Virus record (IMG/VR): IMGVR_UViG_3300008110_008702
Span: 1 to 55,394 of that record
Source: a virus
Strand: one strand, 5' to 3'
DNA: 55,394 nucleotides
Below are positions 1 through 17,484 of this stretch, piece after piece (positions within the stretch are counted from its first letter, which is position 1; every line of letters starts with the position of its first letter). The translations under genes and the position numbers were made by a program. The notes under the pieces were generated by a model. It made no database searches. It was not told the DNA's origin and worked only from the letters and a program-made list of their open reading frames with translations.

Positions 1-44
1 TTTAATATAAATATATAAAAAATTAAATAAATTAAATAGATGTT

Positions 45-926
45 TTAAATACCACGCTCTAAATCTGTGAAATCTCCCCACGCCCTATTCGAGTCTATGT
101 CGCTTGGTTTTAGATTCGGTTTTCTCATAGCCGGCGCCACGTTCCAAAAGTAGTCTCCTTGTTTCCCGTGTTGTTTGATCATTTCCCAGCCTTTAGCGTC
201 GTAGGTGAGAACGCAGTCGAAAGGCGGTGTGATCCTTGAGTTTTTGGTGAACGCCTTATCATAACTGTAGAAGTTTGCTCTGCCTAATTCTCCCTCTTGA
301 ATGTTTCTTGCTACTGCTACCGCGTTGAATTCAGCTTTAGGTATTGCTATCTGAAGAGTTCTTGATAGTACCCCGGTAGAGAATACAGACCACATCGTTT
401 CTATGTTTGAGTCTTTGAAGTTATCGTAGAACACTCTAACACCGCCTGCCACAACCATCTCGTGCTTAAGACCAAATGGAAGGAACCTAGCTCCAATCTT
501 TTCTGCGAACTTCTTTGCCCATATGTTTGCTGTTGGCATCGCTGGTATCCTTACGAACAAAGGTATGCCGCCTTCTTCTATGGCTGTGAGTTGGTGTTCC
601 GACGCTTTCTCTGAGGCTGGCATTACAAGGTACAGTTTCTTGTTGTACTTCTTGGCTAGGTAACACAAAGAGTAAGGAGCATATCCCGTTCTCGGACAGC
701 AATACACCATTGAATCTTCCTTAATTTGGGATATAAAAAAATCTGCCATCTTAGCTTTAGTCCCATACTGAAACTCTCCATCATCTATGACTTTAAAGCC
801 ATCTATGTCTTTTGTTACGAATGTAAAATTATGTTTATAGTCTTTGGTTATGTTTAGGTAGTACTCTAGATTCCTACCGTTGGTTTCGTCTAGGCTTTCT
901 TTTGTTGTGCACTTGTTTTCGAACAT
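45..926 (-). CDS. PLP-dependent-enzyme-like protein (fold type II, ACC deaminase / cysteine desulfhydrase-like)
   Basis: 293 aa. The layout resembles fold type II pyridoxal-phosphate enzymes: a YGTKAKM stretch (about residues 54-60) sits where ACC deaminase relatives carry the GNKxRK Schiff-base lysine, so K57 or K59 could bind PLP. It is followed by a Rossmann-like stretch (VYCCPRTGYAPYSLCYLAKKY) and a KLYLVMPAS strand, and later FSTGVLSRT resembles the glycine-rich phosphate cradle. The usual asparagine-containing SxGN loop is not obvious, so substrate and even catalysis are uncertain. It lies downstream of the groEL terminator, so it probably has its own transcript or depends on read-through. 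The start is the first ATG; no Shine-Dalgarno site is visible. Bases 1-44 after its stop are plain A/T-rich sequence. It could instead be a non-catalytic relative. The family assignment is inferred from motif order only. Confidence 0.5.
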   Translation of the reverse strand: MFENKCTTKESLDETNGRNLEYYLNITKDYKHNFTFVTKDIDGFKVIDDGEFQYGTKAKMADFFISQIKEDSMVYCCPRTGYAPYSLCYLAKKYNKKLYLVMPASEKASEHQLTAIEEGGIPLFVRIPAMPTANIWAKKFAEKIGARFLPFGLKHEMVVAGGVRVFYDNFKDSNIETMWSVFSTGVLSRTLQIAIPKAEFNAVAVARNIQEGELGRANFYSYDKAFTKNSRITPPFDCVLTYDAKGWEMIKQHGKQGDYFWNVAPAMRKPNLKPSDIDSNRAWGDFTDLERGI

Positions 927-942
927 ATACTTTATTTATTAT

Positions 943-970
943 GTGAAAAGAGCGCCTTGTTAGGGCGCTC
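943..970 (-). terminator. Rho-independent terminator after groEL
   Basis: A 7-bp GC-rich stem (GAGCGCC/GGCGCTC, bases 950-956 and 964-970) with a 7-nt loop is followed on the minus strand by TTTT. It lies 8 bases past the groEL stop, ending the hsp20-groES-groEL transcript. Confidence 0.8.
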
Positions 971-977
971 CTTGTTA

Positions 978-2600
978 TTACATTCCTCCCATCATTCCTG
1001 CCATCGGATCAGCTTTCTCATCTTTATCTTTCTTCTCAAACACTACGCTTTCTGTTGTGAGTACTGTGCCTGCTACAGATGATGCGTTTCGTAGAGCTGT
1101 GATCACAACCTTAGCTGGATCTATGATGCCTGCTTCGAGTCCATTTACTATTCTGTGGCTCTTAGCGTCGTAAACTTCTCCTTCGTTAGGCACTTTATTC
1201 CACCAATCCTCGACTCCTGCGTTTGATAGTATCTTTTTAAATGGAGCTTGAATCGCTTTCCTAACGATCTCTTTGGCCACACTAGCGCTTGTTGTGTCTT
1301 CGGATTTTAATTTTAAAGAAAGTTGGTATAATATGCTTCCTCCTCCTGGTACGATACCTTCAGCTAATGCAGCTTTTGTCGCGTATAGCGAATCTTCTAA
1401 TCTATCCTTCTTCTCTTTTATCTCTACTTCTGAATTGCCGCCTACGCTGATGATTGCAACTCCGCCGATCATTTTACCAAGTCTCTCTTGTAGCTTCTCT
1501 TTTTCAAAGAACGATGTTGCTTTGTCTATCTGCTCTTTTATTTCTTTTGCTCTAGTTTCTATCTTTTCTAAATCCCCTTTTCCGTCTACGATGGTTGTTT
1601 CGTCCTTTGACACTGTTACTAATCTACACGTTCCCAAATACTGACTCAACTGGCCGGCTGGAAGTTTATCTAGCTTGTGTCCTTTGTCTTTAGAAAGTAC
1701 TTGTCCGCCTGTTAAGATAGCTATGTCTTCTAAAATCAGTGTCTTTCGCTCTCCGAAGTCAGGAGCTTTAACAGCGCACGCTTGAACTATGCCACGCATC
1801 TTGTTAACAATCATTGTCGCTAAAGCTTCGTCTCCAAAGTCTTCAGCTATCACAAGCAACGGTTTATTTTCAGAGTTAACCTTTGTCATCACCTGCAATA
1901 GCTCTTGAGCGGTAGATATTTTACCGTCGTATAGTAAAATATAAGGATTTTCTAAAATAGACTGCATTGTGTTGTTGTTTGTTACAAAGTACGGACTCTT
2001 GTAACCCCTTTCAAACTGCATGCCCTCAACAACTTCCAATTGAGTGTCTCCAGTTTTAGACTCTTCTAAAGTGATTACGCCCTCTCTTCCAACTTTGTCA
2101 ATAGCGGTAGCGATAAGACTTCCAATTTCTGTGTCGTTGTTACCAGAGATAGTAGCTACTTGTTTGATCTGCTCTTCTGATTCTATATCAACAGACTTAT
2201 TTTTTATTTGATCTATGATTTCGCTAACTATGCTATCTATCTGATTCTTAATTTCAACAGCATTTGTTCCCTGTCTTATTTCTTTTAGACCTTCCTTAAT
2301 CATTTCAGTTGCAATGATAGTAGAGGTTGTTGTTCCATCGCCGGCCTCGTTAGCAGATTTGATACTCACTTGTTTTACTAAGTTTGCTCCAATCGTTTCT
2401 ATAGGATCCTCTAATTCGCCAAAGCTTTTAGCTACAGATACGCCATCTTTTGAAATTTTGGTTTCTCCGTTTAGTTCTTTTATCAAAACGGTTCTTCCTC
2501 CTGGACCAAGCGTAGAACCAACTGCGTCGTTTAGTTTTTCTATACCTGCAAGTAACTTCTCTTTAAGTTCTTGTCCTTTTACAAATTTTGTTGTACTCAT
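978..2600 (-). CDS. groL: GroEL-type chaperonin (60 kDa)
   Basis: 540 aa, the usual length of bacterial GroEL (about 545). It forms the double-ring ATP-driven folding chamber in the cytoplasm, together with the GroES lid encoded just upstream. Visible signatures are LGPGGRTV near residue 31, KDGVSVAK with D52, the ATP-site AGDGTTTS with D88, the conserved VPGGG segment near residue 410 preceded by the LEDSLYATKAA helix with its hydrolytic Asp, and the Gly/Met-rich C-terminal tail (MAGMMGGM). It is full length with no missing catalytic residue, so it should be active. The gene follows groES by 4 bp and is closed by a terminator. Phage chaperonins are thought to fold structural or replication proteins. 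No clear Shine-Dalgarno site is present, as expected for a Bacteroidetes-type leader. Confidence 0.98.
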   Translation of the reverse strand: MSTTKFVKGQELKEKLLAGIEKLNDAVGSTLGPGGRTVLIKELNGETKISKDGVSVAKSFGELEDPIETIGANLVKQVSIKSANEAGDGTTTSTIIATEMIKEGLKEIRQGTNAVEIKNQIDSIVSEIIDQIKNKSVDIESEEQIKQVATISGNNDTEIGSLIATAIDKVGREGVITLEESKTGDTQLEVVEGMQFERGYKSPYFVTNNNTMQSILENPYILLYDGKISTAQELLQVMTKVNSENKPLLVIAEDFGDEALATMIVNKMRGIVQACAVKAPDFGERKTLILEDIAILTGGQVLSKDKGHKLDKLPAGQLSQYLGTCRLVTVSKDETTIVDGKGDLEKIETRAKEIKEQIDKATSFFEKEKLQERLGKMIGGVAIISVGGNSEVEIKEKKDRLEDSLYATKAALAEGIVPGGGSILYQLSLKLKSEDTTSASVAKEIVRKAIQAPFKKILSNAGVEDWWNKVPNEGEVYDAKSHRIVNGLEAGIIDPAKVVITALRNASSVAGTVLTTESVVFEKKDKDEKADPMAGMMGGM

Positions 2601-2604
2601 ATTT

Positions 2605-2898
2605 TTATTTTTCTAAAATTGCTAAAATTTCTGTTTCTTTGATTAATATGTAATCTTCTCCGTCTACGTTAACTTTCATAGAACCCATTTTTGGAATTAG
2701 CACTCTTTGGCCTGGTTTGAGTTTGGTTTCGTAATAAGATCCTTTGTGCCAATTATAGGTGTCACTGCACTCTACAACTTCTCCCATGTCTGGACGTTCT
2801 TTACCCATATCTGGTAAAACTATGTTTCCGTAAGTCATCTCTTCTTCTTCGACGACCTTCAGTACGGCTATCCCATTTAGTGGTTTTAATTTTTGCAT
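2605..2898 (-). CDS. groS: GroES-type co-chaperonin (10 kDa)
   Basis: 97 aa, the same length as E. coli GroES. It is the heptameric lid of the GroEL chamber. LKPLNGIAVLKVVEEEE at the N-terminus, a mobile-loop segment around residues 21-34 (TYGNIVLPDMGKERP, with the IVL tripeptide that docks on GroEL), and the KPGQRVLIPK and DYILIKETEILAI segments match Cpn10. It is a true GroES rather than a T4 gp31-type replacement, judged by length and the conserved core. It lies 4 bp upstream of groEL and 12 bp downstream of a small gene, in the chaperone operon that starts with hsp20. Confidence 0.97.
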   Translation of the reverse strand: MQKLKPLNGIAVLKVVEEEEMTYGNIVLPDMGKERPDMGEVVECSDTYNWHKGSYYETKLKPGQRVLIPKMGSMKVNVDGEDYILIKETEILAILEK

Positions 2899-2910
2899 AT
2901 TTGTTTTTGT

Positions 2911-3102
2911 TTAATTGTTTATTATTTCAAGATCCTCTATTTGTTGACAAAAGTATATAATACCGTCTTTTTTAAACACCGTTTCTGTGTTAAGCCACTC
3001 TTTTATTAGATCTACGTTCTTGATCCTTTCTTCTGGCCAGGTACGTTTTACGTAAAAAAGAGATTCGTTTACTTTTATGTAATTTTTACAAATAGATAAC
3101 AT
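2911..3102 (-). CDS. Small hypothetical protein in the chaperone operon
   Basis: 63 aa; no family recognised. It lies between hsp20 (gap 23 bp) and groES (gap 12 bp) on the same strand, so it is probably co-transcribed. The sequence has a short beta-like start (YIKVNESLFYVKR), a TWPEERIKNVDLIKEWL helix and an acidic C-terminus (QQIEDLEIINN). It has no signal peptide, membrane segment or metal motif. Its compact gap spacing and matching base composition argue for a real gene; a chaperone-related role would be guesswork. Confidence 0.6.
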   Translation of the reverse strand: MLSICKNYIKVNESLFYVKRTWPEERIKNVDLIKEWLNTETVFKKDGIIYFCQQIEDLEIINN

Positions 3103-3125
3103 AACTTAACTTGGCGGGCTTAGCT

Positions 3126-3536
3126 TTAGTTGATGGCGATTTCTTTTAGGATTTTAGTCTTCTCTGCTGGAACATCCAGTATTAGAAGCCCCTTTTCCAT
3201 CGTAGCTTCGAGTTTAGCGAGATTGAATTTGTCTGCAACTCTCCAAGCAAGGTCGAAGGATCGTCTTGCGATACCTCGTTGAATGTATTCACGTGTCTCC
3301 GTTTCACCAAGTCCTTCGTGAATCACTCTAAGTGTATTTCCTTCCACTTGGATTTTTAGGTCTTTCTTTTCTAAACCTACAACGGCTAGTTCGAACCTAA
3401 GTCCGCTGTCTGTTTCGTAAATGTCTACGGGATAATTGATCTTTGTCTTGATGCTGTTGAATGTGGAACTTGTGTCAAAAAAGTTCTTCCACATGATGTC
3501 GAATGGGTCCATTGCCCAATGTTGTAATTGTGTCAT
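3126..3536 (-). CDS. Hsp20 / small heat-shock protein (alpha-crystallin family)
   Basis: 136 aa, the size of bacterial IbpA-type proteins. It is an ATP-independent holdase that keeps unfolding proteins soluble for GroEL or DnaK. The short N-terminal arm contains the MDPFDIMW segment typical of the family; the alpha-crystallin domain runs from about residue 34 to 125 (NYPVDIYETDSGLRFELAVVGLEKKDLKI, then the RGIARRSFDLAWRV strand and the GLLILDVP strand that replaces the GVL motif). The C-terminal IxI-type tail is degenerate (LKEIAIN). It heads the chaperone operon. A strong AGGAGG Shine-Dalgarno (3543-3548) lies 7 bp before the start, which is rare in this window, and the leader is one copy of the duplicated 80-bp element at 3553-3635. 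Confidence 0.93.
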   Translation of the reverse strand: MTQLQHWAMDPFDIMWKNFFDTSSTFNSIKTKINYPVDIYETDSGLRFELAVVGLEKKDLKIQVEGNTLRVIHEGLGETETREYIQRGIARRSFDLAWRVADKFNLAKLEATMEKGLLILDVPAEKTKILKEIAIN

Positions 3537-3552
3537 TTTAAACCTCCTGTGT

Positions 3553-3635
3553 TTTGTGCTCCTATTAAGTGAGCGGTTAATTATTAATTTTCGTAACTGC
3601 TAGCCCACCAAGTACTAGCGTTTGCTTATAAATAT
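3553..3635 (-). repeat. Duplicated leader element, copy A (promoter-like box + hairpin + RBS), upstream of hsp20
   Basis: About 80 bp, nearly identical to copy B at 4288-4370 and in the same orientation. Read on the minus strand it starts with the ATATTTATA box (3627-3635), then has an 8-bp hairpin with one bulged A (AACGCTAG pairing with CTAGCAGTT around loop TACTTGGTGGG), an A/T spacer, and a GCTC/GAGC mini-hairpin that covers a GGAG. It lies directly before the hsp20 ribosome binding site, so it is probably the promoter and 5' untranslated region of the chaperone operon. Confidence 0.8.
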
Positions 3636-3684
3636 ACTTAATTTTGGATTCTTATTACTGTTTTAGTTTTTAGTGATACTAAAA

Positions 3685-4239
3685 CTATTTATTTAAAAAC
3701 TTTGCTTTATCTGCTGAAGACATGTTTATAATTACTTCGTTTCTATCTGCAATATCTCCAGCAAATATAACAGGATAGCCTGTCGGTATATTATAAGATT
3801 TCATTCTTAAGTTGTCTCCGCCGTAAGTAGCATCATCTATGTCTGTAGTGTATGAATTCCAACCCTCTTCATAGTCTACATTTTCGTATCGATAAACTTT
3901 TATTGGTTCGGTTGTTTTTGTTTTATTAGCAATTTGTGTTAACATCGAAGATAATCTATTTTTATCAAATACAGCAAATCCTCCATTCATAGTAGGCGGT
4001 GAATCGCTCATCCAATCTTGCAAATCTTCATCTGTATCAGCATTTTCATAGTATTCTTCAAAAGTCTTTTTTGTTATTTTTTCGTCAACAATTTTATTTA
4101 TAGTTTTAGGAAGTTCATGATAGCCAAGATATAGTAATTGTCCCCAAGCTTTAATTAAACCCAATTCCCATTTTTCGTATTTGGCTTGTTGAATAGATTG
4201 ATCAATTATTTCTTTTATTATTGTTATTAAGCTTTTCAA
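3685..4239 (-). CDS. Putative ADP-ribosyltransferase (R-S-E class)
   Basis: 184 aa. The C-terminal half has the order of elements of arginine-type mono-ADP-ribosyltransferases (T4 Alt/ModA, VIP2 and MuF-associated ARTs): KVYRYE with R117, SYTTD starting at S129 (equivalent to the STS motif), and DRNEVII with E168 as candidate catalytic glutamate. The residue two before E168 is R166 rather than Glu or Gln of the usual ExE/QxE, so target specificity may differ. The N-terminal 100 residues are helical and unassigned. T4 enzymes of this type modify host RNA polymerase and ribosome-associated proteins; whether this one does is inference. The start is TTG, with ATATTTATA 17 bp upstream. The gene lies between two copies of an 80-bp direct repeat. 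It is otherwise an unknown phage protein. Confidence 0.5.
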   Translation of the reverse strand: MKSLITIIKEIIDQSIQQAKYEKWELGLIKAWGQLLYLGYHELPKTINKIVDEKITKKTFEEYYENADTDEDLQDWMSDSPPTMNGGFAVFDKNRLSSMLTQIANKTKTTEPIKVYRYENVDYEEGWNSYTTDIDDATYGGDNLRMKSYNIPTGYPVIFAGDIADRNEVIINMSSADKAKFLNK

Positions 4240-4256
4240 TGTACTCTTAGTTTTAT

Positions 4257-4265
4257 TATAAATAT
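4257..4265 (-). promoter_or_regulatory. Candidate phage promoter box before the ART-like gene
   Basis: Minus-strand ATATTTATA, ending 17 bp before the TTG start. It is a second box in addition to the one that opens leader copy B, so this gene may have two start sites. Confidence 0.45.
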
Positions 4266-4287
4266 GTGTTAGTGACCATCTCTGAGA

Positions 4288-4370
4288 TTTTGTGCTCCTA
4301 TTAAGTGAGCGGTTAATTATTGTTTTTCGTAACTGCTAGCCCACCAAGTACTAGCGTTTATGTATAAATA
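4288..4370 (-). repeat. Duplicated leader element, copy B, upstream of the ART-like gene
   Basis: Near-perfect copy of 3553-3635. Differences are a few bases in the A/T spacer and at the 5' edge. It retains the TATTTATA box (4363-4370), the bulged hairpin and the GGAG mini-hairpin, but after it the sequence diverges: there is no AGGAGG and no start codon at the place hsp20 has them; the next gene starts about 50 bp further on. It also forms the 3' side of the lipoprotein gene at 4421. Confidence 0.8.
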
Positions 4371-4420
4371 AACAACTTTCTACTAACTTATAACAACTTA
4401 TCTTTTAAGTGACATTGGTT

Positions 4421-5626
4421 TTAATACCCCTTTTGTGGAAACCTTGTCCATCCATTTACCCAAAAGGGTTTAGACAGTGTCTCAGCTTCGTTTTTGGTAT
4501 AAAACGTTTCTTTATTGCCTTCAACAATTGCTTTGCTTTTCATCTGCGCTGCTGTTAAAAGTACCGAAGTTGATCTGAAGTTTTGTGTTGGATCAAAGGA
4601 TTGAATCTCGTTATTTGTGAAAGCACTCAAATTGTCCCTGTACGATTGTGCTGTTTCATTTGATTCGATTGAGAACGAACCCTTCATGTAACCTATTATT
4701 TTAGAATCGCTAACTGTGAATTGAGTAGCTCTTCTCCACCTTAAACCCAAATTGTGGTTCGATAACGCAGAAGATTCAAAAGGACCTATCAAAACCATGC
4801 TAACCAGTTTGGGGTGTGTGAAAGGTTGTGCAGGTGACCCAACACCGTCGTTGTCGCACTCAACGCCATTCCCAGCGTCTCCGTTGTCTACAAAAGATGG
4901 GTCTCTTTTAGCAACTCCCCTCGTAACAGTGCCAGTGTAACCGAAATCAAAATCAAAATCGTCGTCAGCTGTTGCATAAGCATAAAGGTTTTTGGGAGAA
5001 ACTGTGCCTCCAAAAAATTCAAAAGCGTCATCATTAGCGTATATTGTTTGTACGTATTCTATCGTGGTTCCTGATCCAACTGCTCCCAAAGTCAACGCGT
5101 TAATTTCTGAGTTCGGTAGAGCGGCTATTCCTGCGTACTCTATTCTAACGTACTTTAATATTCCACTGTTATCTTCGTTGTTGGTTCCACCGTAAGGTCT
5201 ACCTATCCCGCCCTCTATAGTGGGTTCAGAGGATCTGTTTGTTTTTGCTTTTCCCAAAATAACAATGCCTCCCCAATCACCCGGGGATCTTTCTCCTATT
5301 GGCTTACCTGATGTGAATATTATTGGCTTTGAAGGAGTTCCTTCTGCTATGATTTGAGCGCCTCTTTCTATACACAAAGCACCCTTTTCGGCCACATCAG
5401 AAACTATAACCGTACCGGGTTGAATGATAATTTTTGCTCCGTCTGTTATGTAAACGTACCCCTTTAAAGTCCACACTTTATCAGAAGTCAAATTTATAGT
5501 TGTGTTGATAGTACCGGATATGATTGTGGAAGATGGTACGTTCAAAACGTCTTCGTCCTGTCCCAACTGTTTTTTGCAAGACACCAAATACGTTGTTAGC
5601 ATTAAAAGCGTGATTAATTTCTTCAT
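4421..5626 (-). CDS. Beta-helix surface lipoprotein, partner of the TonB-dependent receptor
   Basis: 401 aa. The signal peptide ends in a lipobox (YLVSC, lipidated C17), followed by KKQLGQDED, which resembles the charged stretch that sends Bacteroidetes lipoproteins to the cell surface. Residues about 30-230 have the repeating hydrophobic pattern of a right-handed beta-helix, with WTLKGYVYI, GAKIIIQPGTVI and GDWGGIVILGKA segments typical of a Bacteroidetes lipoprotein family. An Asp-rich patch (ATADDDFDFDFGY) near residue 220 could bind cations. Its ATG overlaps the stop of the receptor gene (ATGA, 5623-5626), so the two are translationally coupled and probably act as one outer-membrane uptake complex. 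Ligand unknown. Finding such a gene in a phage is unusual. Confidence 0.8.
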   Translation of the reverse strand: MKKLITLLMLTTYLVSCKKQLGQDEDVLNVPSSTIISGTINTTINLTSDKVWTLKGYVYITDGAKIIIQPGTVIVSDVAEKGALCIERGAQIIAEGTPSKPIIFTSGKPIGERSPGDWGGIVILGKAKTNRSSEPTIEGGIGRPYGGTNNEDNSGILKYVRIEYAGIAALPNSEINALTLGAVGSGTTIEYVQTIYANDDAFEFFGGTVSPKNLYAYATADDDFDFDFGYTGTVTRGVAKRDPSFVDNGDAGNGVECDNDGVGSPAQPFTHPKLVSMVLIGPFESSALSNHNLGLRWRRATQFTVSDSKIIGYMKGSFSIESNETAQSYRDNLSAFTNNEIQSFDPTQNFRSTSVLLTAAQMKSKAIVEGNKETFYTKNEAETLSKPFWVNGWTRFPQKGY

Positions 5627-7875
5627 AGGTTTATGTTTAATGATATTGAAATGGTTTGTTCGTTGTTTGTTTTAATTAATTCGCCCCTTGTTTTTTGGTA
5701 ATATACTGTTGGTTGGGCCAATATATCGCTTACGGCAAGCTTAAACTCTGTATTTTTTAGTTTATATAGGTATACAAAGTCTATTACGTTTCTAGAATTT
5801 TCAAATATATCGTCGTAACCTTGAAAGCCAACAGCTGATATTCTATCTCCGACCCTGTTATAAGTTACGTTAACCGTATTATTCTTTTTATGAAAGTTTA
5901 AGCCTCCGTTTATTACGTAGTTTGATTGTCCTTGCATCTGGCGATTCAATCCCCTAACATTAGAATTGACAAAAGATGAATTCATGTAAAAATCAAAAGC
6001 CTTACTTATTTTTTTACGAACATCAAATTCTATACCGTATAATACTGCAGATTTTGGATTTGTGTAAGTCAATAACAAATTTGAAGGTACGGAACCATCT
6101 GCCACAATCTGTTCTATCGGTCTAAGAAAATTTTTACCAAACACAGAAACAGACACATTTTCTCCTGTCTTTGGATAAAATTCGTACTTCAAATCCAAGT
6201 TGTATATGTCAGTTTTTTGTAAATTAGAATTACCAAGCAATTGTGCGTTTCTTACAAAATCGTAATAGGCAAAATTGGCTACTTCTCTAAATTCTGGTCT
6301 GGAAAGAGTTTTGCTTAGAGAGAATCTATATTTTGTTTTTGCTAGATTGTAAGAAACATTTAATGACGGTAAAGGATCAAAATATTTTCTATAAACTTCA
6401 ATCCCATCTCCGCTAAAATCCGCTGTATTTACTTTAAATTCGTTGTATTCGTTTCTAATTCCTACGTTAAATTTCCACTTTTTATAGTCTTTATCTATCA
6501 TAGCATAGCTGCTAAGCAAGTTAAAATTTGCACTATACCTATCAGTATTGTTCGTTATTTCGTTTAACATGTCTATAAAATCATACCTAAAAACTCTAGC
6601 TTGGAAAGATCTGCCTCGGTTAACGTAACTTCCGCCTATTTTTAAGTTTTTAAAATTAGTGTTTACACCAAAATTAAAACTGTTTTCATTCATAATGCTC
6701 CAGAATCTGTATGTATCTCTAAAAGCAATAGAGTAGTTTTCGTTTGAGTTTAAAGATTTAGTTACTGGATTAATTCTATAGTCGGGTTGATCTCTAAGAG
6801 TGAGGTTGTGTCCCAAATTAATGTTCCAATTTTTAATTTTGGAATCAAATTGAGTGTTAATTACGGTTTTTATAACGTTGTTAGAAGAATTGCTTCTTAC
6901 GCTTTGTAAGTTATCGAAGTTATCTCCGCTACGAACTAAGTACAGTTGTTCTACTTGATGATTGAACAGGGTTTTGAGACTAAACCTATTTTTATTTAGA
7001 TAAGTTATGTTTAATAACCCGTTGACAGACTTTGTGTTTATAAATGAAGTGTCCTTGTATTTGTAGGCGAGTTCTGTTGAAGACTGGTAGTCTTGTCTAT
7101 CTGTGTAATTTAAAGAAAACGAGTTCCTTGCGGTTGAGCTAAATAATAGATTGAAACTTTTTTTCTTTATTCCAATAGATAAATTGCTGTTTACATTCAA
7201 AGGAGAAGTAAAACTTTCAGACAGTGGAGAAGGCATTAACTTAGTATAAGCTCTCTTATCTCCGTTGCTGCCTGTTCTAAATTTGTAAGTTGACGGGAAG
7301 TTTGTTGGAAAATCTATCTTATCAACCAATTGGAATTTTTTATTTGTCGAAATCAACCCGTATCCGCTTCCAATTCCAATGTTAAAAAAGTTGTTAGAAA
7401 CCTCTTTAGTAGAAACCTGAATAACTCCGCCAGCAAAATCTCCCGGTAGGTTAGCCGACGCTGATTTATTAACAACTACATTGTCTATCAAGTTTGTTGG
7501 TATGATATCGAAAGAGAACGCTCTTCTGTCTGGTTCTGTTGACGGAAGCATGGTTTTATTGAGCATCGCAGAGTTGTATCTATCTGCCAACCCTCTAACC
7601 AATACAAACTTATCGTTTTGTACTGTAACTCCGCTTATTCTTTTTAAAGCGTCTCCCAAACTTCTATCAGGTGTTTTTTTAACGAACTCTATTGATAAAC
7701 CATCCGATATCGAAGAGTTGTTACGTATGGAAGTTAAAACAGAATTTTCGCTTGATTTTTTTCCTGTGTGGTAAATTGTAATTTCAGATAGTGTCCTATT
7801 GAATACGGTGTCTTGACAAAAGCTACTAAGAGAGAAACAGATAAAAAATAAAACCAATAAAATTAACCTTTTCAT
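5623..7875 (-). CDS. TonB-dependent outer-membrane receptor
   Basis: 750 aa. A signal peptide (residues 1-20, cleavage before QDT) is followed by a TonB-box-like LSEITIY (29-35), a plug domain (about 45-158) containing RGLADRYN (94-101), DIIPTNLIDNVVV and GDFAGGVIQV, and a 22-strand-type barrel rich in alternating aromatic strands up to the C-terminal ISISLNINL. The plug is of the Bacteroidetes type whose hosts usually have an added N-terminal carboxypeptidase-like domain; that domain is missing here, making the protein shorter than host relatives. It takes energy from TonB to import a ligand across the outer membrane. The next gene encodes a coupled surface lipoprotein. Upstream are a box of the phage promoter type and a palindrome (7923-7937). 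The gene is intact, so expression is likely. Ligand cannot be told from sequence. Confidence 0.92.
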   Translation of the reverse strand: MKRLILLVLFFICFSLSSFCQDTVFNRTLSEITIYHTGKKSSENSVLTSIRNNSSISDGLSIEFVKKTPDRSLGDALKRISGVTVQNDKFVLVRGLADRYNSAMLNKTMLPSTEPDRRAFSFDIIPTNLIDNVVVNKSASANLPGDFAGGVIQVSTKEVSNNFFNIGIGSGYGLISTNKKFQLVDKIDFPTNFPSTYKFRTGSNGDKRAYTKLMPSPLSESFTSPLNVNSNLSIGIKKKSFNLLFSSTARNSFSLNYTDRQDYQSSTELAYKYKDTSFINTKSVNGLLNITYLNKNRFSLKTLFNHQVEQLYLVRSGDNFDNLQSVRSNSSNNVIKTVINTQFDSKIKNWNINLGHNLTLRDQPDYRINPVTKSLNSNENYSIAFRDTYRFWSIMNENSFNFGVNTNFKNLKIGGSYVNRGRSFQARVFRYDFIDMLNEITNNTDRYSANFNLLSSYAMIDKDYKKWKFNVGIRNEYNEFKVNTADFSGDGIEVYRKYFDPLPSLNVSYNLAKTKYRFSLSKTLSRPEFREVANFAYYDFVRNAQLLGNSNLQKTDIYNLDLKYEFYPKTGENVSVSVFGKNFLRPIEQIVADGSVPSNLLLTYTNPKSAVLYGIEFDVRKKISKAFDFYMNSSFVNSNVRGLNRQMQGQSNYVINGGLNFHKKNNTVNVTYNRVGDRISAVGFQGYDDIFENSRNVIDFVYLYKLKNTEFKLAVSDILAQPTVYYQKTRGELIKTNNEQTISISLNINL

Positions 7876-7884
7876 ATCATTTTA

Positions 7885-7893
7885 AATAAATAC
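7885..7893 (-). promoter_or_regulatory. Candidate phage promoter box before the TonB-dependent receptor gene
   Basis: Minus-strand GTATTTATT ending 9 bp before the ATG. It shows that this host-like gene is wired to the same element as phage tail and replication genes. Confidence 0.4.
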
Positions 7894-7922
7894 AAAAAGT
7901 ACTTTTAAAAAGTTTAAATGTG

Positions 7923-7937
7923 ACATTAACTTAATGT
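7923..7937. promoter_or_regulatory. Perfect 15-bp palindrome upstream of the receptor gene (possible operator)
   Basis: ACATTAA-C-TTAATGT, arms of 7 bp around one base, located 30 bp upstream of the promoter-like box and 48 bp before the receptor start. It lacks a long U-run and G/C pairs, so it is a weak terminator candidate; a repressor or activator site is the other reading. Confidence 0.3.
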
Positions 7938-7947
7938 TAACTTTTTA

Positions 7948-10257
7948 TCAATGGCCGTCTCTAAGATTGTGGGCTATAGCTGGTGGAGCCACTAAATCCA
8001 CGCTCAACACTGTGGTATTTTCCATTTTATTTTGTACTATTTTAGCAGCTTCTTCAGCGCGATGCTCTTCCACTTCCATAACCAGCTGATCGTGTATTTG
8101 CGCTATCACCAAACCGTTTATGCCTTTATTTTTGAACTCTCTGTTTATGGCAATCGCAGCTCTATTAACGATGGAAGCTGCAAGGCCCTGTATTTGCACG
8201 TTGATGCAGTTGTTTAAACCATTCTTGTAATCTAACACTAGAGATCTTGCTTTATCGGGTCCGTGACTTTTCTCTAGCTGTCTTCTTGTTTCAAACTCTA
8301 ACAAAGAATCTCCAAAATGTTCGTACAGTTTTTTTACTTTTGGCAAGTGTCTAATTCTTCCTACTTGCGTTTTTATGTAACCGTTCTTTTTTGTAAATTC
8401 TCTAGAATCTTCCATCCATTTTTTAAGGTTGGGAAACCCGTTTAAGTATCCGTTCACAAGCTCTTCCGCCTCTTTCTTTTTAACTCCAAGCGTCATTCCC
8501 AACGCGTATGCACCCATTCCGTAAGGAATACCCAACGAGTAAGCCTTTGCTTTGTTTCTGATTTGGGGAGCAACCTTTTTTAAGAAGTTTGGCGCTTTTT
8601 TGTCTGGAGAGTATTGGTTTAATTTTTCTGTTTTTATTGCGATGGTGGAGTAAAAGTCCCAATTGTTTCTAAAAATGTCTTTTAATCCCTCGTCGTTAGA
8701 TACGTGAGAAAACACCTTTGGTTCGAGAGACTCGTAATCGCAATCTATGAATATGTTACCCTCTTTAGGCACAAAGAAAGCTCTAATCATGTTATTGTAC
8801 TCTATAACTATAGGTTCGTCATCTCCGTCCTCTTTTGGCCTGGGTAACTGTTGCGCATCTGATCCGTATCTTCCTGACACAGTTGCGTGTTGCTTGTAAT
8901 AAAAGTAGTATTTTCCGTGTTCTTCTGCTTCTAAAAACCTATCGATGTATGTTGATTTTATTTTAAGCAGCTTATTGTATATTCGCAAGTCTTTTGCCCA
9001 CGGGTGTTTTGGTGCAATCGATTGAATCAAGTCGTCATCGAATTGGGGTTTTCCAGTTTTAGTTTCAGACAGTGGCTTTATTCCCAACGCTGCGAATGCT
9101 ATTTCTCCCATGTGATCCTTTGATTGGATATTGAAATAGTTTCCATTATTACTCTCTTTCCACATGTTCATGGAAATTTTAGCTTTGACATCGTCAGGTA
9201 ACTTTGTTTCGTCTCCTGTAAGTAGGAACTCTTTTATCGGTCCATCTTCAAGATCGTGGATATCGTTCGAATTAAGCGAGTACTTACCAGTCTTTTCTGA
9301 TATAGAAAGTTTTAGATCGTAATATTTTACAAGCTCTTGAGCGTATGAACCTTTGTGATTTGGAGGATAAGCGTCCATCGCCTTTATCAAAACCCACGTT
9401 CTGACGTTTTCTTTTTCTAACAACGTTTTTACAACCAAATCATGATACTTTTTTAGATCAGCTGAGATTCGCTGCTTCGCAGATGACATCAAATCCATGT
9501 CAAGCTTAACACCGCAATCTTCCATAGGTATAGTAACCTCTCTATAAAGTGGCATCACCTCGTCTTCGTAAAAGAACTTTCTTAAATTCTCTTCGTCAAG
9601 TTTTGGTTCGAAGTAGTTGAATATGCGAAGCGCAAGATCTGTATCTGCGACAGCGTATTTAGCTAATATTTGTAGATCTGCTTTATATATTTCGTAGTTG
9701 TCTTTTGATATTGATCCTCCGTTTGCTTTTATAGAAGATTTTAGCTCTATCTGCTCTTCGTTCGCTTCAGCGGTTACGTCCAAACCGATTTGACTCTGAA
9801 CCATTTTAGCTATTTCTTTTAAAGCAAACGGAGAGTTCGAAGAGTACCCTGCGCCTTCCTCGTTTAACGTGTGAACAAGCAGCATGGTGTCTGCGTGTAT
9901 GTAAGGAGTTAGGTCTATACCATAGAAGTTTTTTACAAATCTACAATCGAAAGATAGGTTGTGACCTATTATTTTTTTACCAACCAAAAGGGATAACAAT
10001 TTTTTTGCTATTTCGTGAGCTAATTCCTTTTTTTCTATGTAATAGTCTTTTAATTGTCCATCAGAAAAAACCATCGTTGGTATGTAATAACCAGTACCTA
10101 TTTTTGATGTAACAGAAAAACCTATTATTTTTCCGCTTCTTGTGTTAAGGGAGTTTGTTTCTGTATCAAACGATATCAATTCCTCGCTTGCATTATACTT
10201 TGCCATCTCTTTAACTTTGTCTAAAGAGTCTACGAGCACATAACTTTTTGTTGTCAT
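7948..10257 (-). CDS. Family A DNA polymerase with 3'-5' exonuclease
   Basis: 769 aa replicative polymerase. The proofreading domain (about 1-240) has the DEDDy set: D31 and E33 in FDTET, D104 in HNLSFD, Y201 and D205 in YAVAD. The polymerase domain follows: SGRYGSDAQQL (motif 1 arginine), motif A D507 in DYESLEPK, motif B RNKAKAYSLGIPYG (R567, K571, Y579) and motif C HDQ with D723. Two details differ from E. coli Pol I: the position equivalent to Phe762 is Leu575, and the Glu after the motif C Asp is Gln724. Both metal-binding aspartates are present. It has no 5' nuclease domain; that activity is a separate gene at 14451. It ends a run of replication genes and lies 2 bp from a small protein gene. 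Confidence 0.96.
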   Translation of the reverse strand: MTTKSYVLVDSLDKVKEMAKYNASEELISFDTETNSLNTRSGKIIGFSVTSKIGTGYYIPTMVFSDGQLKDYYIEKKELAHEIAKKLLSLLVGKKIIGHNLSFDCRFVKNFYGIDLTPYIHADTMLLVHTLNEEGAGYSSNSPFALKEIAKMVQSQIGLDVTAEANEEQIELKSSIKANGGSISKDNYEIYKADLQILAKYAVADTDLALRIFNYFEPKLDEENLRKFFYEDEVMPLYREVTIPMEDCGVKLDMDLMSSAKQRISADLKKYHDLVVKTLLEKENVRTWVLIKAMDAYPPNHKGSYAQELVKYYDLKLSISEKTGKYSLNSNDIHDLEDGPIKEFLLTGDETKLPDDVKAKISMNMWKESNNGNYFNIQSKDHMGEIAFAALGIKPLSETKTGKPQFDDDLIQSIAPKHPWAKDLRIYNKLLKIKSTYIDRFLEAEEHGKYYFYYKQHATVSGRYGSDAQQLPRPKEDGDDEPIVIEYNNMIRAFFVPKEGNIFIDCDYESLEPKVFSHVSNDEGLKDIFRNNWDFYSTIAIKTEKLNQYSPDKKAPNFLKKVAPQIRNKAKAYSLGIPYGMGAYALGMTLGVKKKEAEELVNGYLNGFPNLKKWMEDSREFTKKNGYIKTQVGRIRHLPKVKKLYEHFGDSLLEFETRRQLEKSHGPDKARSLVLDYKNGLNNCINVQIQGLAASIVNRAAIAINREFKNKGINGLVIAQIHDQLVMEVEEHRAEEAAKIVQNKMENTTVLSVDLVAPPAIAHNLRDGH

Positions 10258-10259
10258 AA

Positions 10260-10460
10260 CTATTCTTCTTTGTGTTTATCTTTGTATGGAAATAATTCGT
10301 TAAGTTTTTCTTTTCTCCTTGTGCACCCACAATCATCTTCTCCCATAGACTCAGCAACAAACTGTGCTAGTTTATCAAGATAAAGCAATTCGGTGACTTT
10401 TGCTATAGAGTCTCCCAATCCTTCAGCCTTCTTTTTCTTCTTGGATTTCTTTTTTTCCAT
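10260..10460 (-). CDS. Small Lys-rich protein with CGC motif
   Basis: 66 aa, unrecognised function. A Lys-rich N-terminus (MEKKKSKKKKK) precedes a helix (SIAKVTELLYLDKLAQFVAE) and a conserved-looking C-terminus, DDCGCTRRKEKLNELFPY. The CxC pair may bind a metal or be structural. It is 2 bp upstream of the polymerase gene, so an accessory role in replication is possible but unsupported. Its start overlaps the preceding gene by 38 bp. Confidence 0.7.
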   Translation of the reverse strand: MEKKKSKKKKKAEGLGDSIAKVTELLYLDKLAQFVAESMGEDDCGCTRRKEKLNELFPYKDKHKEE

Positions 10461-10623
10461 CTTCTTTGGGTCTTATTGATAAAAACAATATCATTAGTTG
10501 ATTTGTTAGTATTTCAACATGCTTTTCCGTTTGATTTAGTCTATAATATTGGTATATCTGTAAAATTAGCAATGCCACACAAATAACGAAATACACGCTT
10601 TCTCTTGTTATAACAAATGTCAT
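10423..10623 (-). CDS. Small single-pass membrane protein
   Basis: 66 aa. One strong transmembrane helix (about residues 10-28, VYFVICVALLILQIYQYY) is followed by an amphipathic stretch and a charged C-terminal tail (RPKEDGKKEIQEEKEG), suggesting an N-out/C-in inner-membrane protein. It overlaps the next gene by 38 bp in another frame. No family recognised. Confidence 0.6.
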   Translation of the reverse strand: MTFVITRESVYFVICVALLILQIYQYYRLNQTEKHVEILTNQLMILFLSIRPKEDGKKEIQEEKEG

Positions 10624-10643
10624 TTTTTTATTTTAAATATAAC

Positions 10644-10835
<192 letters not shown>

Positions 10836-12698
10836 TTACAATTCTGTTATAGTACACTCTCCCCCTGCGCAAGCAGCCTCTGCTCTAAGATTGGTTAAGT
10901 CTTCGAATTCAACAACTTGAGTAAGATCCAAGTTTGTTAGGTGTGACAACATCTCTTCGTACTTTTCTTTTGTGCAATCCTCGAAAGGCGCTTGAACGTA
11001 TGTGTGATCAGAGTAAGGTAAAACTGAAAGTCCGTTATAACAGTGTTTGTTTTCCCACATCCACTCTCCAACTTCTTCCCACTCGTTGTCTTTTATAGAA
11101 ACCGTAGCAGATATGTTGTGAGTGTTTTGTCCTGTTCTGTGTCCTGGTTTTATCCAATTTTCGTAGAAGAACTTTACCCTTTGCAAAAGATCTAAAGCGG
11201 ATTCTGTTCTTAATATAGCTCCGTCTGGTGCTTTTTGCGGAACAGAAATAACAGCTGTATCGTGAGGTCTAAAGTACTCGTCCTCTACTAGCTCAGGATG
11301 GTGAATTGATAGGTGGGTATATATTGCTTCGTTTTTGCCAACACGTATGCGTCTGATATAGTAATCGTTGTGCCACGCGTGGATGCCTGAAGACGTGCCT
11401 AACGCCAAAGAGCTTGTACCTGAAGGTTTGATAGTTGTGCATCTCGCAGCGGTGTTTATTCCAAGCATTTTAGCCACTCTTTCGTTTTCTTCTTTTACTG
11501 CCAATGCTGCCTCTTTAAGATCGAACTTCTGAGCTTTTCCCGAACCTATTCCAGTCATGCCAACGCCAATTAAAGCCTCTTTCTCTGTCGTTCTTTGCCA
11601 AACAGGTCTTAAGTAGTGGAAATCTGTGTAAGAAGCTTGAAGGGTGCCAATAAACGATGCCGCTTTTGCTCTATTGTTTAGATCCTCTTGATCTACCACA
11701 TCAGAAACATTTACTTCGCAAAGGTTACAGAACTGGTAAGGGCGTAAAGCGATTTCGCAACAAGGGTTCGTGCCCCAATCTTTATCGTTATTCAAGTATA
11801 TGCCGGGTTCTCCTGAACCAGAGTTTTTAATTTTTTCCCAAAGAGACATGAAGAACTCTCTTGTTACTTTATTTCTCAATAACACAGCAGAGTTGTTAGC
11901 TCTTCCACGTTGCGGGTTTGATTCCCACCAGGCTCCAGATTTTGCAGCTATCATTTCCTCATCATCAGCGCTAAATAAGCTGATAAGTGCTGCTCTACGA
12001 ATTCCTCCTGCTAATACAGCATCTGCTATGTGACAAACGATGTCATGAACTTCTATCGAAGAAAGTTTTGAGTTATTTTCTTTTGTAGATAGAATGCCTT
12101 CGATTTTTACCAAACACTCTTTTAACGGTTGAGGACCAGGTGCTTTACCTCCTGATGTAACTAGTTCGGCTCCTTTTGCTCTAATGTCTGAGAAATCGAA
12201 AACAACCGTTGAACCGCCTTCAAAATACGATCTAATCAATACTTTGATCGAATCTGCCCATCCCTCGATGCTGTCTCCTATCAAAAACCTTCTGTGTTTG
12301 TTAGCGTTTGGTTTTATAATTTCTGGAAGCTTTTCTATGTGGTGTCGTTGAACAGAGTATCCAACGCCTGTGCCTCCCAACAAAAGAAACATAACCTCTG
12401 AAAATGAGCGTATATCATCAATTGGTAGATACGCGCAGTTATATACTCTATTTGGAGATATTTCTATAGGTTTACCAGCGAACTGCATACTTCTCATAGA
12501 AGGCAAAACTTTTTTATCGTACACATACGAATAAGCGTGTTCTATTTCTTTTTCTAACTCAGGAAATTTCTTCAAGTGCATGCTCTTGTTCCTGTCTACT
12601 AACTCTTTCCAAGATTCTCTTCTTTTTGACTCTTTTTTGTACTTTGAGTACTTCATGTACGTAGTCAAATCGCTTAATATCGATTGCGTAATGTGCAT
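10836..12698 (-). CDS. nrdJ: Adenosylcobalamin-dependent (class II) ribonucleotide reductase, monomeric type
   Basis: 620 aa, shorter than the 739 aa Lactobacillus leichmannii enzyme but with all its active-site residues. C88 and C324 match C119 and C419 (the redox pair), C313 and E315 in NPCCE match C408 (thiyl radical) and E410, and the C-terminal CAGGEC (C610, C615) matches the CxxxxC that passes electrons from thioredoxin. It reduces ribonucleotides to deoxyribonucleotides for phage DNA synthesis, independent of oxygen, using vitamin B12 coenzyme that the host must make or import. KPSGTSSLALGTSSG (about residues 440-455) is the phosphate-binding loop. It is upstream of the DUF5522 gene and polymerase. 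No B12 riboswitch is visible in its 123-bp leader, which is A/T-rich with a small CTATAG inverted repeat. Confidence 0.96.
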   Translation of the reverse strand: MHITQSILSDLTTYMKYSKYKKESKRRESWKELVDRNKSMHLKKFPELEKEIEHAYSYVYDKKVLPSMRSMQFAGKPIEISPNRVYNCAYLPIDDIRSFSEVMFLLLGGTGVGYSVQRHHIEKLPEIIKPNANKHRRFLIGDSIEGWADSIKVLIRSYFEGGSTVVFDFSDIRAKGAELVTSGGKAPGPQPLKECLVKIEGILSTKENNSKLSSIEVHDIVCHIADAVLAGGIRRAALISLFSADDEEMIAAKSGAWWESNPQRGRANNSAVLLRNKVTREFFMSLWEKIKNSGSGEPGIYLNNDKDWGTNPCCEIALRPYQFCNLCEVNVSDVVDQEDLNNRAKAASFIGTLQASYTDFHYLRPVWQRTTEKEALIGVGMTGIGSGKAQKFDLKEAALAVKEENERVAKMLGINTAARCTTIKPSGTSSLALGTSSGIHAWHNDYYIRRIRVGKNEAIYTHLSIHHPELVEDEYFRPHDTAVISVPQKAPDGAILRTESALDLLQRVKFFYENWIKPGHRTGQNTHNISATVSIKDNEWEEVGEWMWENKHCYNGLSVLPYSDHTYVQAPFEDCTKEKYEEMLSHLTNLDLTQVVEFEDLTNLRAEAACAGGECTITEL

Positions 12699-12821
12699 TT
12701 TACATATAAGTTTAAATTTTAAATAATATAATATACCCTATAGGTTTTCTCTATAGCAAAAAATTTTACCCTTGATCTTTCAATCAAAAAATGAATAGTA
12801 GTAATGTGATGTTTGAGTTAA

Positions 12822-13022
12822 CTATCTACCGCTTGGTATAGTGGTGTTAGCTTTATTAACAGCCTTTTGAGTTTTCAAAACGTTTTTTGTTGAGTTAACA
12901 GCAGCCGTTGAGTTAGCCTCAGCGTTCATGAGTAACATTTCATCAGTATACTTGGGAGGATTATCAGACAATCTAAAACCGTCACCCTTGATCGCGTTCA
13001 AAAATTTATTTAATAAGCTCAT
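12822..13022 (-). CDS. Small hypothetical protein between helicase and ribonucleotide reductase
   Basis: 66 aa, unrecognised. The N-terminus MSLLNKFLNAIKGDGFRLSDNPPKYT could be amphipathic; the rest is Ala/Asn/Thr-rich and probably helical. It has its own promoter-like box 23 bp upstream (13046-13054), which supports it as a real, separately expressed gene. No signal peptide. Confidence 0.6.
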   Translation of the reverse strand: MSLLNKFLNAIKGDGFRLSDNPPKYTDEMLLMNAEANSTAAVNSTKNVLKTQKAVNKANTTIPSGR

Positions 13023-13045
13023 TTTCTTAATGTTTTAACTGTATC

Positions 13046-13054
13046 AATAAATAT
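13046..13054 (-). promoter_or_regulatory. Candidate phage promoter box before the 66 aa gene at 12822
   Basis: Minus-strand ATATTTATT, 23 bp before the ATG and inside the 47-bp gap after the helicase stop. Confidence 0.45.
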
Positions 13055-13069
13055 GTTTGTTTTTCGATT

Positions 13070-14449
13070 TTAACCCCCTAGCTCAAAAAATTTGTTAGCC
13101 ATATCTGATAAATATCTTCGGTCAGAGTTATTCATGTTATTATTTTGTTTGTTATTATCGTAAGTTTGTATCTCCGATTCGTCTAATTCGTTAGAATCTA
13201 TCTGTATGTTTCCGTTAGAGGTGTCTATTTTAGCAGCAAAAGTCATGCCGTCTGAACCGAATCGGTTCTTTATGACGTGAATTCTACCTGTGCCGTTCAA
13301 TTTGTCTTCCCTTTTTCTAGATAGAGACATTGCGAAATCGGCAATCATGATCTTATCGTAAGAACCAGCTATCTTATCCGCTTCGATGATATCGTCTTTG
13401 CTTCCCATTCTATTAACTTGACTTACAGTCCATATTGGAAGCTTGAGCTGTCTAGCAAGACCTTTCACAGAAGTGTATACATCGTCTATCTCGTCCTTTC
13501 TTTCGCTCGACTTAGATCTTGATTTTATCAGATCCACGTAGTCTATTATCACCAGATCTGGTTTGTTTCCCAGACTGACGCACTTTTGAATGTGAGTTTC
13601 TATTGTTGATACAGTTGTTTTTCCCATTGGATATTCTCTAACTAACAGTTTGCCTGGCAGCTGTTGTATTGTGCTTTCTATCAACTCTCTGTTCTCTTTC
13701 TTGTGTATGTTTTGAAACTCAATGCCTGTGAATAGAGAATCGTACCTTTTTGCTACGTATTCTTGAGAAAGCTCCAAAGTGTAGTGATTCACGTTGTATC
13801 CAGCCTTTACAGCCATTGCGCCCAGATTAATTAAAAACCAAGACTTACCTCCACCTGGGGATCCCAATACCATGCCCAAATCTCCGCCTCCTAAACCTCC
13901 CATCAATAACTCATTTATGTGTTCCCAAGCTGTTGGAACTGCTCCGCGTTCTTCCAAGCGGTATCTAGTTTCTATGTCTTTTTCGTATTCGTGTCCGATG
14001 TCTCGACTTTGACCCGCCTTTAGAGCTTGATCGATTGTAGATCTGATATCGTCGTATTGACCCTTGGTTAACATTTCTACAGAACTCATCAACGCTTGCT
14101 TAAGCTTTTGGTTTCTACAGAAGTTGCTGAACTCGATCTCAACGTATTCCCTGTCTTCGTTAATGGCTTTTAAGCACTCTTTTAACTGTTCTACTACGCT
14201 TATCTTTAAAATCTCATTATCCAATTTCTTGGCTTCTACAGCCATGTACTCTGGCGTTGGATTAGTGTGGTACTTGGAATAGTACTTTAGAGTTTCTGAA
14301 ACAATCCAACGGTGCGCAGGATTATCGAACTCTTCGTGATTTAAAATATCGTATATACCGTGTAGAAACTCTTTATGTTTTAGCAAAGAAGACAACACTT
14401 TTATCTGAAATCCAACCCCGTATTGTTGCAACGTATTTAGTGTACTCAT
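13070..14449 (-). CDS. DnaB-like replicative helicase
   Basis: 459 aa. The N-terminal helical domain (1-150) precedes a RecA-fold motor: Walker A GSPGGGKS (K202), a TLELSQEY motif 1a, Walker B PDLVIIDYVDLI (D303), a SQVNR motif 3 and the KNRFG arginine-finger segment near residue 400. It is the ring helicase that unwinds the fork, equivalent to DnaB or T4 gp41. No primase domain is fused and none lies in the window. The Asn-rich C-terminus (QNNNMNN) is a flexible tail. It lies 1 bp after the 5' nuclease gene, in the replication operon. Confidence 0.93.
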   Translation of the reverse strand: MSTLNTLQQYGVGFQIKVLSSLLKHKEFLHGIYDILNHEEFDNPAHRWIVSETLKYYSKYHTNPTPEYMAVEAKKLDNEILKISVVEQLKECLKAINEDREYVEIEFSNFCRNQKLKQALMSSVEMLTKGQYDDIRSTIDQALKAGQSRDIGHEYEKDIETRYRLEERGAVPTAWEHINELLMGGLGGGDLGMVLGSPGGGKSWFLINLGAMAVKAGYNVNHYTLELSQEYVAKRYDSLFTGIEFQNIHKKENRELIESTIQQLPGKLLVREYPMGKTTVSTIETHIQKCVSLGNKPDLVIIDYVDLIKSRSKSSERKDEIDDVYTSVKGLARQLKLPIWTVSQVNRMGSKDDIIEADKIAGSYDKIMIADFAMSLSRKREDKLNGTGRIHVIKNRFGSDGMTFAAKIDTSNGNIQIDSNELDESEIQTYDNNKQNNNMNNSDRRYLSDMANKFFELGG

Positions 14450-14450
14450 A

Positions 14451-15467
14451 TTACATTTTGTATTTACTTAGTTCGTTAAAATTTTTGTATAGCCACGATC
14501 TCGGTTCTTTTATGCTAGCGCCTAAATCGTCTTCGTTATACAATTTTACAAATTCCTGGGAATCAAAATGCTTATACGGTTCTAGTAGCATGTTTTCGAG
14601 AGCGAGTACGTCTTCATCAGGTATGTTAGGATTGTTAAGGTCCATCAACAACTGGTTTATCTTCAGTTGGTTCTTGAAACTTAATACATTTCCATGAACT
14701 TTCTTACTTCCGCCTTCGCAAACTTCCAAAATCTCTTCCAGGGTTACTGGCGTCTCGTTGGCCAGCTTTGGAAACTCCTTCAATAGTGTCTTTTGGCCAA
14801 GACCGTTGACGCCTGGAACGTTATCACCAGTGTCTCCGAGAAGCATCTTCTGAATCAAGAAATTGTTTGGGTGTACACCGTATTCCTCTAGAACTCTACG
14901 TTTATTGTAGAATATCTTTTTTGTGGGAGAAAACACAGTTATCCTATCGTCGACCAATTGCAAGTAATCCCTATCGCTTGAAACTACGGTGACTTCTTTT
15001 CCGTACTTCTTTGCTAAGCGTCCTATCACGTCGTCTGCTTCAATTTTGTCAATAGAAACAAGATCTACGGGTAAACACTTTAGGTATTCTATCAATCTAA
15101 CAAGTTGGTTAGTCATGGATTCTGACTCATCTTCTTGATTCTCGTAGTGATCCCAGTTGGTTATCCTTCTTATGCCTCTGTTTGCTTTGTACTCTGGATA
15201 TATGTACCTCTTGTTTGTCGAAGAACCTTTGCCATCGAAAACTAGTATAACTCTCGTTGGTCTTACGAGGCTTATCGAGCTGCCTAACGACCTAAGGAAA
15301 CCTGTTAGGCCTCCTATAGGTGTTAAACTTTTGTTTGTGTGTTGTATTATTGCGAAAGACCTCATGAACATGTTCAAAGAGTCTATCAACAACACACGAC
15401 TGTCTATATTCAACTCCTCTTTTTGTTCTGTGAGAGAGTCGAACATTTTTTTATAATCTTCTTTCAT
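14451..15467 (-). CDS. 5'-3' exonuclease / flap endonuclease (FEN family, T4 RNase H-like)
   Basis: 338 aa. Acidic metal ligands of the family are visible: D29 in LLIDSLN, D78 in LVFDGK, E143, D145 and D146 in KIEADDVIG, D165 and D167 in SSDRDYLQL, and D212/D215 in LGDTGDNVPGV, which begins the helix-3-turn-helix DNA-binding element (GLGQKTLLKEF). It removes RNA primers and flaps from lagging-strand fragments, supplying the activity that the phage polymerase lacks. The N-terminal 20 residues (MKEDYKKMFDSLTEQKEELN) are an extension. Gaps of 1 bp to the helicase and 9 bp to UvsX show operon structure. Confidence 0.93.
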   Translation of the reverse strand: MKEDYKKMFDSLTEQKEELNIDSRVLLIDSLNMFMRSFAIIQHTNKSLTPIGGLTGFLRSLGSSISLVRPTRVILVFDGKGSSTNKRYIYPEYKANRGIRRITNWDHYENQEDESESMTNQLVRLIEYLKCLPVDLVSIDKIEADDVIGRLAKKYGKEVTVVSSDRDYLQLVDDRITVFSPTKKIFYNKRRVLEEYGVHPNNFLIQKMLLGDTGDNVPGVNGLGQKTLLKEFPKLANETPVTLEEILEVCEGGSKKVHGNVLSFKNQLKINQLLMDLNNPNIPDEDVLALENMLLEPYKHFDSQEFVKLYNEDDLGASIKEPRSWLYKNFNELSKYKM

Positions 15468-15476
15468 TGTTTGTTT

Positions 15477-16544: not shown

Positions 16545-16552
16545 ATTAGATT

Positions 16553-16575
16553 AAAATGCCCCTCGTTAGAGGGGC
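16553..16575 (-). terminator. Terminator between gp32-like and uvsX genes
   Basis: Stem of 7 bp (GCCCCTC/GAGGGGC, 16558-16564 and 16569-16575) with a 4-nt loop, followed on the minus strand by ATTTTAA. The U-run is short, so it probably attenuates, leaving the ssDNA-binding protein more abundant than UvsX. Confidence 0.7.
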
Positions 16576-16588
16576 TTTTATGTGGTTG

Positions 16589-17425: not shown

Positions 17426-17444
17426 AATTTTTGTAACTTTATTG

Positions 17445-17453
17445 AGTAAATAT
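17445..17453 (-). promoter_or_regulatory. Candidate phage promoter box before the gp32-like gene
   Basis: Minus-strand ATATTTACT, one base off the consensus, 19 bp before the ATG. Confidence 0.4.
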
Positions 17454-17484
17454 ATGTGAAAAGAGTTAAAATCTAAAGATTACG

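Follow-up and report, generated by a model that had tools for sequence, protein, structure and literature searches.

Several described systems resemble the locus analyzed here. In F. johnsoniae, the PUSIV pair Fjoh_0545/Fjoh_0546 of the PhoBR operon is reported to be strongly induced by phosphate depletion (PMC8115612). Its TonB-dependent transporter (TBDT), Fjoh_0545, contains the PF07715 and PF14905 domains and is followed by a pectin-lyase/beta-helix lipoprotein, the FII protein Fjoh_0546 (PMC8115612). A comparable arrangement is found in Caulobacter (ElpS / CC0171), where the lipoprotein ElpS is made on phosphate starvation and its gene adjoins a TonB receptor gene (PMC2996285). SusCD and PusCD systems also combine a TonB-driven outer-membrane channel with a lipoprotein partner. 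In phages, pstS and other cyanophage genes are under host PhoBR control, according to the account of Zeng and Chisholm 2012 given in PMC10976474, and a SusC-like receptor has been found in the megaphages Mar_Mega_1 and LR745206, for which its authors proposed a role in carbohydrate uptake (PMC9723777). Phage phosphorus genes, the control of cyanophage pstS by host PhoB, SusC in megaphages and host Pus systems are already published. On the other hand, in an open-access library we have found no report that links phage TonB receptors with phosphorus or a Pho promoter, and the papers surveyed name no outer-membrane importer among the phosphorus genes of phages (pst, phoD, ugp, pit, phoB/R/U and others).

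The window, by which we mean the whole stretch of DNA analyzed, is an IMG/VR virus record of 55,394 bp. Practically all its genes are on the minus strand, among them those for tail sheath, baseplate hub, DnaB-like helicase, PolA, UvsX, SSB, ribonucleotide reductase, GroEL and Hsp20. A TonB-dependent receptor (5623..7875) and a beta-helix surface-type lipoprotein (4421..5626), both on the minus strand, are flanked upstream by DNA polymerase I (PolA) and downstream by a phage-encoded Hsp20 (3126-3536) and a phage-encoded GroEL-like chaperonin (978-2600, PF00118, PHROG 5725), all of them in the same orientation. We propose, with a probability of about 0.74, that this pair is a phage-borne outer-membrane phosphorus-acquisition module under the control of host PhoB. 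From the evidence presented below, we infer the binding of PhoB, the induction of the pair, its coupling to TonB, formation of a complex and the phosphorus cargo.

The receptor has 750 amino acids and belongs to the short form of its family, as judged from its domains, alignment with 13 viral relatives, tree and structure model. It matches the PF07715 plug (3e-8) and the PF14905 barrel (5e-19) above the cut-offs, and its N-terminus, by inspection, resembles a signal peptide and has a stretch similar to a TonB box, QDTVFNRTLSEITIYHTG. These features place it in the TonB-dependent transporter class. The structure model is of low confidence (pLDDT 60), with barrel strands visible. The receptor also matches TIGR01782 (TonB-Xanth-Caul), below the cut-off of that family, and the only matches of its profile in a PDB sequence search are to the colicin I receptor, in the plug region. 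An N-terminal CarboxypepD_reg-type (carboxypeptidase-like) domain is absent. The F. johnsoniae pair has the same domain architecture and a Pho context, but it is chromosomal and Fjoh_0545 also contains PF13715, which the window receptor does not have.

The lipoprotein, with 401 amino acids, begins with a lipoprotein-type signal (..TTYLVSC) whose cysteine, Cys17, is invariant in 38 homologues. It has no match in Pfam or in a PDB sequence search, and its model is a parallel beta-helix (pLDDT 90.5). Foldseek searches with this model gave only matches that are too weak for us to name an activity, nearly all of them to proteins with a beta-helix (pectate lyase, GH87, AlgE4), and no structural relative with a known ligand appeared in the PDB or Foldseek searches. 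The partner of the receptor is therefore a beta-helix protein without the SusD fold (PF07980/PF14322) expected in a SusCD or PusCD system. In the homologue alignment, residues 199-232, 247-260 and 298-299 contain densely packed acidic motifs that are conserved (NDDAFE, DDDFDFDFG, ECDND) and an Arg-Arg that is invariant, all of them candidate metal and phosphate sites. The likeness to ElpS lies in the presence of a TonB receptor beside an outer-membrane lipoprotein induced by phosphate starvation. ElpS differs in being alphaproteobacterial and secreted through T2SS, and the kinship of the two lipoproteins rests on a statement in PMC8115612 about F. johnsoniae relatives.

The start of the lipoprotein gene overlaps the stop of the receptor gene by 4 nt (ATGA, 5623-5626), which makes the lipoprotein a translationally coupled partner. 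The same overlap is present in 67 of 70 viral relatives, and the lipoprotein follows the receptor in all 70 viral loci with enough sequence beyond it. A first-pass annotation of this DNA had described a complete receptor gene with intact signal peptide, TonB-box-like start, plug and barrel, coupled by ATGA to the lipoprotein, placed on one strand between phage polymerase and phage chaperone genes, and integrated there, not brought in by a chance assembly join. All these points agree with our results: Both reading frames are intact, and the integration is supported by near-identical contigs and by the phage neighbours of related pairs.

Known TonB receptors are mostly chromosomal and some cellular sequence is present in IMG/VR, so the pair might be host DNA, due to an assembly chimera or to contigs wrongly called viral. 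Two other contigs match the window at 99.98-99.99% across the pair and its flanks: 3300008448_000057 over positions 1-17875 (17.9 kb) and 3300005527_004874 over positions 2950-17875 (14.9 kb). Since they bear different sample numbers, a chimera is excluded for practical purposes. Phage genes are present on both sides of the pair, a terminase is found in 22 of 50 records bearing relatives of the pair, ribosomal protein L16 in none of 41, and the receptor clade is nearly absent from bacterial genomes, as described below. We have rejected both the chimera and host contamination, and consider an origin in host DNA extremely improbable.

Relatives of the pair are abundant in IMG/VR. Scans with each protein found 106 stretches with receptor relatives and 122 with lipoprotein relatives, and the best non-identical relatives have 60-80% identity. 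The first-pass annotation considered such a pair very unusual in a phage, which has not been borne out: More than 100 IMG/VR stretches hold relatives, in diverse phages. It had also suggested a search of phage genomes for the pair. This gave a positive answer in IMG/VR, but among 50,697 named phage records there are only five matches to the receptor, all of them distant; short unannotated "Bacteriophage sp." matches were set aside as possible host DNA. PHROGs gave no match for either protein at E 0.01. In most related loci only the pair matches proteins of the window, so it resides in other genomes and not in a single phage species. Megablast among the fetched loci found no relatives at the DNA level apart from the two near-identical contigs. 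Neighbouring genes in these loci match phage families (endolysins, tail fibres, exonucleases, gp25, gp32 and similar). When 80 viral loci are grouped by gene content, the number of groups varies from 4 to 13 with the threshold, and for this reason we call the carrier phages just diverse. They probably infect Bacteroidota.

The pair is under strong purifying selection, with a median dN/dS of 0.084 for the receptor and 0.07 for the lipoprotein. These values bear on a different role, in which the pair would mainly alter the cell surface, masking or replacing a phage receptor and excluding competing phages from superinfection. TonB receptors commonly serve phages as receptors, and the lipoprotein would be exposed at the surface. 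Nevertheless, a protein used in competition is expected to diversify, of which there is no sign, and this role leaves unexplained the conserved Pho promoter and the Pho-regulon neighbours of the relatives. We consider it improbable as the main function; the blocking of competing phages, suggested earlier for this pair, has no evidence in its favour and might occur as a side effect.

The phosphorus reading is based on the chromosomal relatives of the pair, which often adjoin PiT, PhoU, PhoB/PhoR, alkaline phosphatase and phosphonate genes, and on the presence of a host-type Pho motif in the viral promoters. In Aquirufa, the pair is followed by an alkaline-phosphatase-superfamily-like enzyme, a PitA-type transporter, a GlpT-like transporter, a phosphonate HD oxygenase, an alkaline phosphatase and a PhnX-like hydrolase; the first and third of these labels were assigned by eye. 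The lipoprotein also adjoins most of the receptors in 30 other genomes, where many receptors are near PiT+PhoU, PhoB/PhoR or the phosphonate cluster. The pair therefore has the features of a PUSIV-type system: a receptor followed by a beta-helix lipoprotein, with relatives in Pho-regulon neighbourhoods. The receptor promoters in these chromosomes contain runs of TTAACA-like half-sites with an 11-bp period.

The 2.5-Mb genome of Aquirufa contains only two perfect TTAACA-N5-TTAACA sites, each of them preceding one of its two PiT genes. Sites with one mismatch are found at a PhoB-like regulator and at the pair, also at unrelated genes, and the total count of mismatch-tolerant sites is no higher than in the control. 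For this reason, only exact sites and a matrix test have been taken as evidence. The matrix was built from 32 chromosomal promoters only and then applied to viral DNA. A score of at least 10 bits is reached by 40 of 72 distinct viral receptor upstream regions, compared with 21 of 1266 other genes and 3 of 68 lipoprotein upstream regions. Five other viral genes exceed 14 bits, and three of these are an exonuclease-like gene that immediately precedes the receptor gene (L004:9143-9925, L089:2370-3155 and L095:6912-7697). The receptors in these three loci have no box of their own: The exonuclease-like gene is probably the first gene of the receptor's operon, and the box may serve the whole operon. 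In 16 of 46 viral lineages there is no box above 8 bits; in some of them a box precedes the next gene upstream.

In the window, a Pho-box-like double half-site, TTAACA-ttaag-TTAATG, is found upstream of the receptor (7924..7940, minus strand), and viral relatives have kept it. Its matrix score is moderate (12.5 bits, fourth among the sites of the window) and, taken alone, this box is only suggestive; the evidence for a host-type Pho box in phage promoters comes from the enrichment in the whole family and from the spacing. A -7 or phage-promoter-like box, TATTTATT, is located 31 bp downstream (7885..7892, minus strand). It is a version of the phage's own TATTTATA box, which is found no more than 70 bp upstream of 10 of the 45 window genes (for example, those starting at 4239, 29802, 36853 and 43345), with 14 occurrences on the coding strand and 2 on the opposite one. 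From this distribution, TATTTATA is likely to be a phage promoter box, and the receptor does share the promoter-like box of tail genes, as had been noticed before. In host promoters, the -7 element TANNTTTG is placed 9, 20, 31, 42, 53 bp or further multiples of 11 from the Pho box in 26 of 27 cases. In viral promoters, the -7 element TANTTATTK is 31, 42 or 53 bp from the box in 18 of the 19 lineages having both elements. The 31 bp of the window fit the 9+11k rule common to hosts and phages. Chance hardly accounts for this common helical phase, although the viral counts are not independent, since viral lineages share descent. We should also note that predicted Pho boxes in a cyanophage were not always bound by PhoB (PMC10976474). 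Cyanophage pstS is likewise a phosphorus gene carried by a phage and preceded by a Pho box of host type, but it codes for a periplasmic binding protein of cyanobacteria, whereas the window pair is predicted from its sequence to be an outer-membrane channel with its lipoprotein and has a Bacteroidota-type Pho motif.

Another scarce nutrient might be imported instead, such as iron, a glycan, or cobalamin for the B12-type ribonucleotide reductase of the phage (10836-12698). This enzyme matches a B12-dependent insertion domain weakly, TonB receptors as a group carry such cargo, and there is the carbohydrate uptake proposed for the megaphage receptor. Like our pair, the latter is a TonB-dependent receptor in a phage, with a lipoprotein relative close by in LR745206, but identity to the window proteins is only 27% (receptor) and 39% (lipoprotein), and no Pho box was found at the LR745206 copy. 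A different nutrient does not agree with the phosphate and phosphonate genes next to the chromosomal relatives, nor with a promoter motif which is that of phosphate transporters and which, among viral genes, is specific to the receptor family. We regard this alternative as unlikely. The earlier suggestion that the pair feeds the infected cell with a scarce nutrient is supported, and genomic context together with the host-type Pho promoter narrows it to phosphorus.

A phosphorus-acquisition module could work as follows. When a Bacteroidota host is infected while starved of phosphate, its active PhoB would bind the TTAACA repeats and aid RNA polymerase at the phage -7-type box, leading to cotranscription of receptor and lipoprotein. 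The lipoprotein would go to the cell surface, capture a phosphorus compound, probably an organophosphate, and pass it to the TonB-driven receptor channel and so into the periplasm. The imported phosphorus would support phage DNA synthesis while host uptake genes are shut down. If this is true, these phages would take charge of the outer-membrane step, by which larger phosphorus compounds enter Bacteroidota, and would respond to the sensor with which the host itself perceives starvation: PhoB hijacking would reach beyond cyanophages, into a second major group of bacteria of aquatic habitats. The Pho motif gives a computational definition of the Pho box in Bacteroidota, and viral effects on phosphorus cycling become directly testable.

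Few bacteria have the close form of the receptor. Among 84,980 species genomes, a scan with two conserved peptide patterns detected it only in Aquirufa antheringensis and in a Cytophagaceae MAG. With profile searches, 3 of 223 genomes of that family and 1 of 396 sampled Bacteroidota proved to have it. The receptors of the remaining bacterial genomes are more distant and longer. In a tree obtained by maximum likelihood (short search, SH-aLRT support), a single strongly supported clade unites 46 distinct viral receptors with the rare Aquirufa copies, which are nested within the viral sequences and adjoin three viral long forms. The first-pass annotation was correct in that the window receptor lacks the N-terminal domain of host relatives, but the clade itself is divided: 21 members have this domain and 27 do not, including the two Aquirufa copies in the count, with about six changes on the tree. 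A tentative reading, to which we give somewhat less than even odds, is that the pair is a long-lived, almost phage-specific phosphorus outer-membrane module, which has diversified in phages, passes from one phage lineage to another without loss of its host-PhoB promoter grammar, has repeatedly lost or gained the N-terminal domain and has been returned to the chromosomes of Aquirufa. Transfer may have gone either way, because Aquirufa-like hosts not yet sampled could be the source.

The region downstream of the pair also contains an 86-bp intergenic repeat, whose two copies (3552-3637 and 4288-4373) are 93% identical. One is located upstream of Hsp20 and the other upstream of a 184 amino acid reading frame that comes after the lipoprotein gene. 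This repeat may be a shared leader, promoter or terminator.
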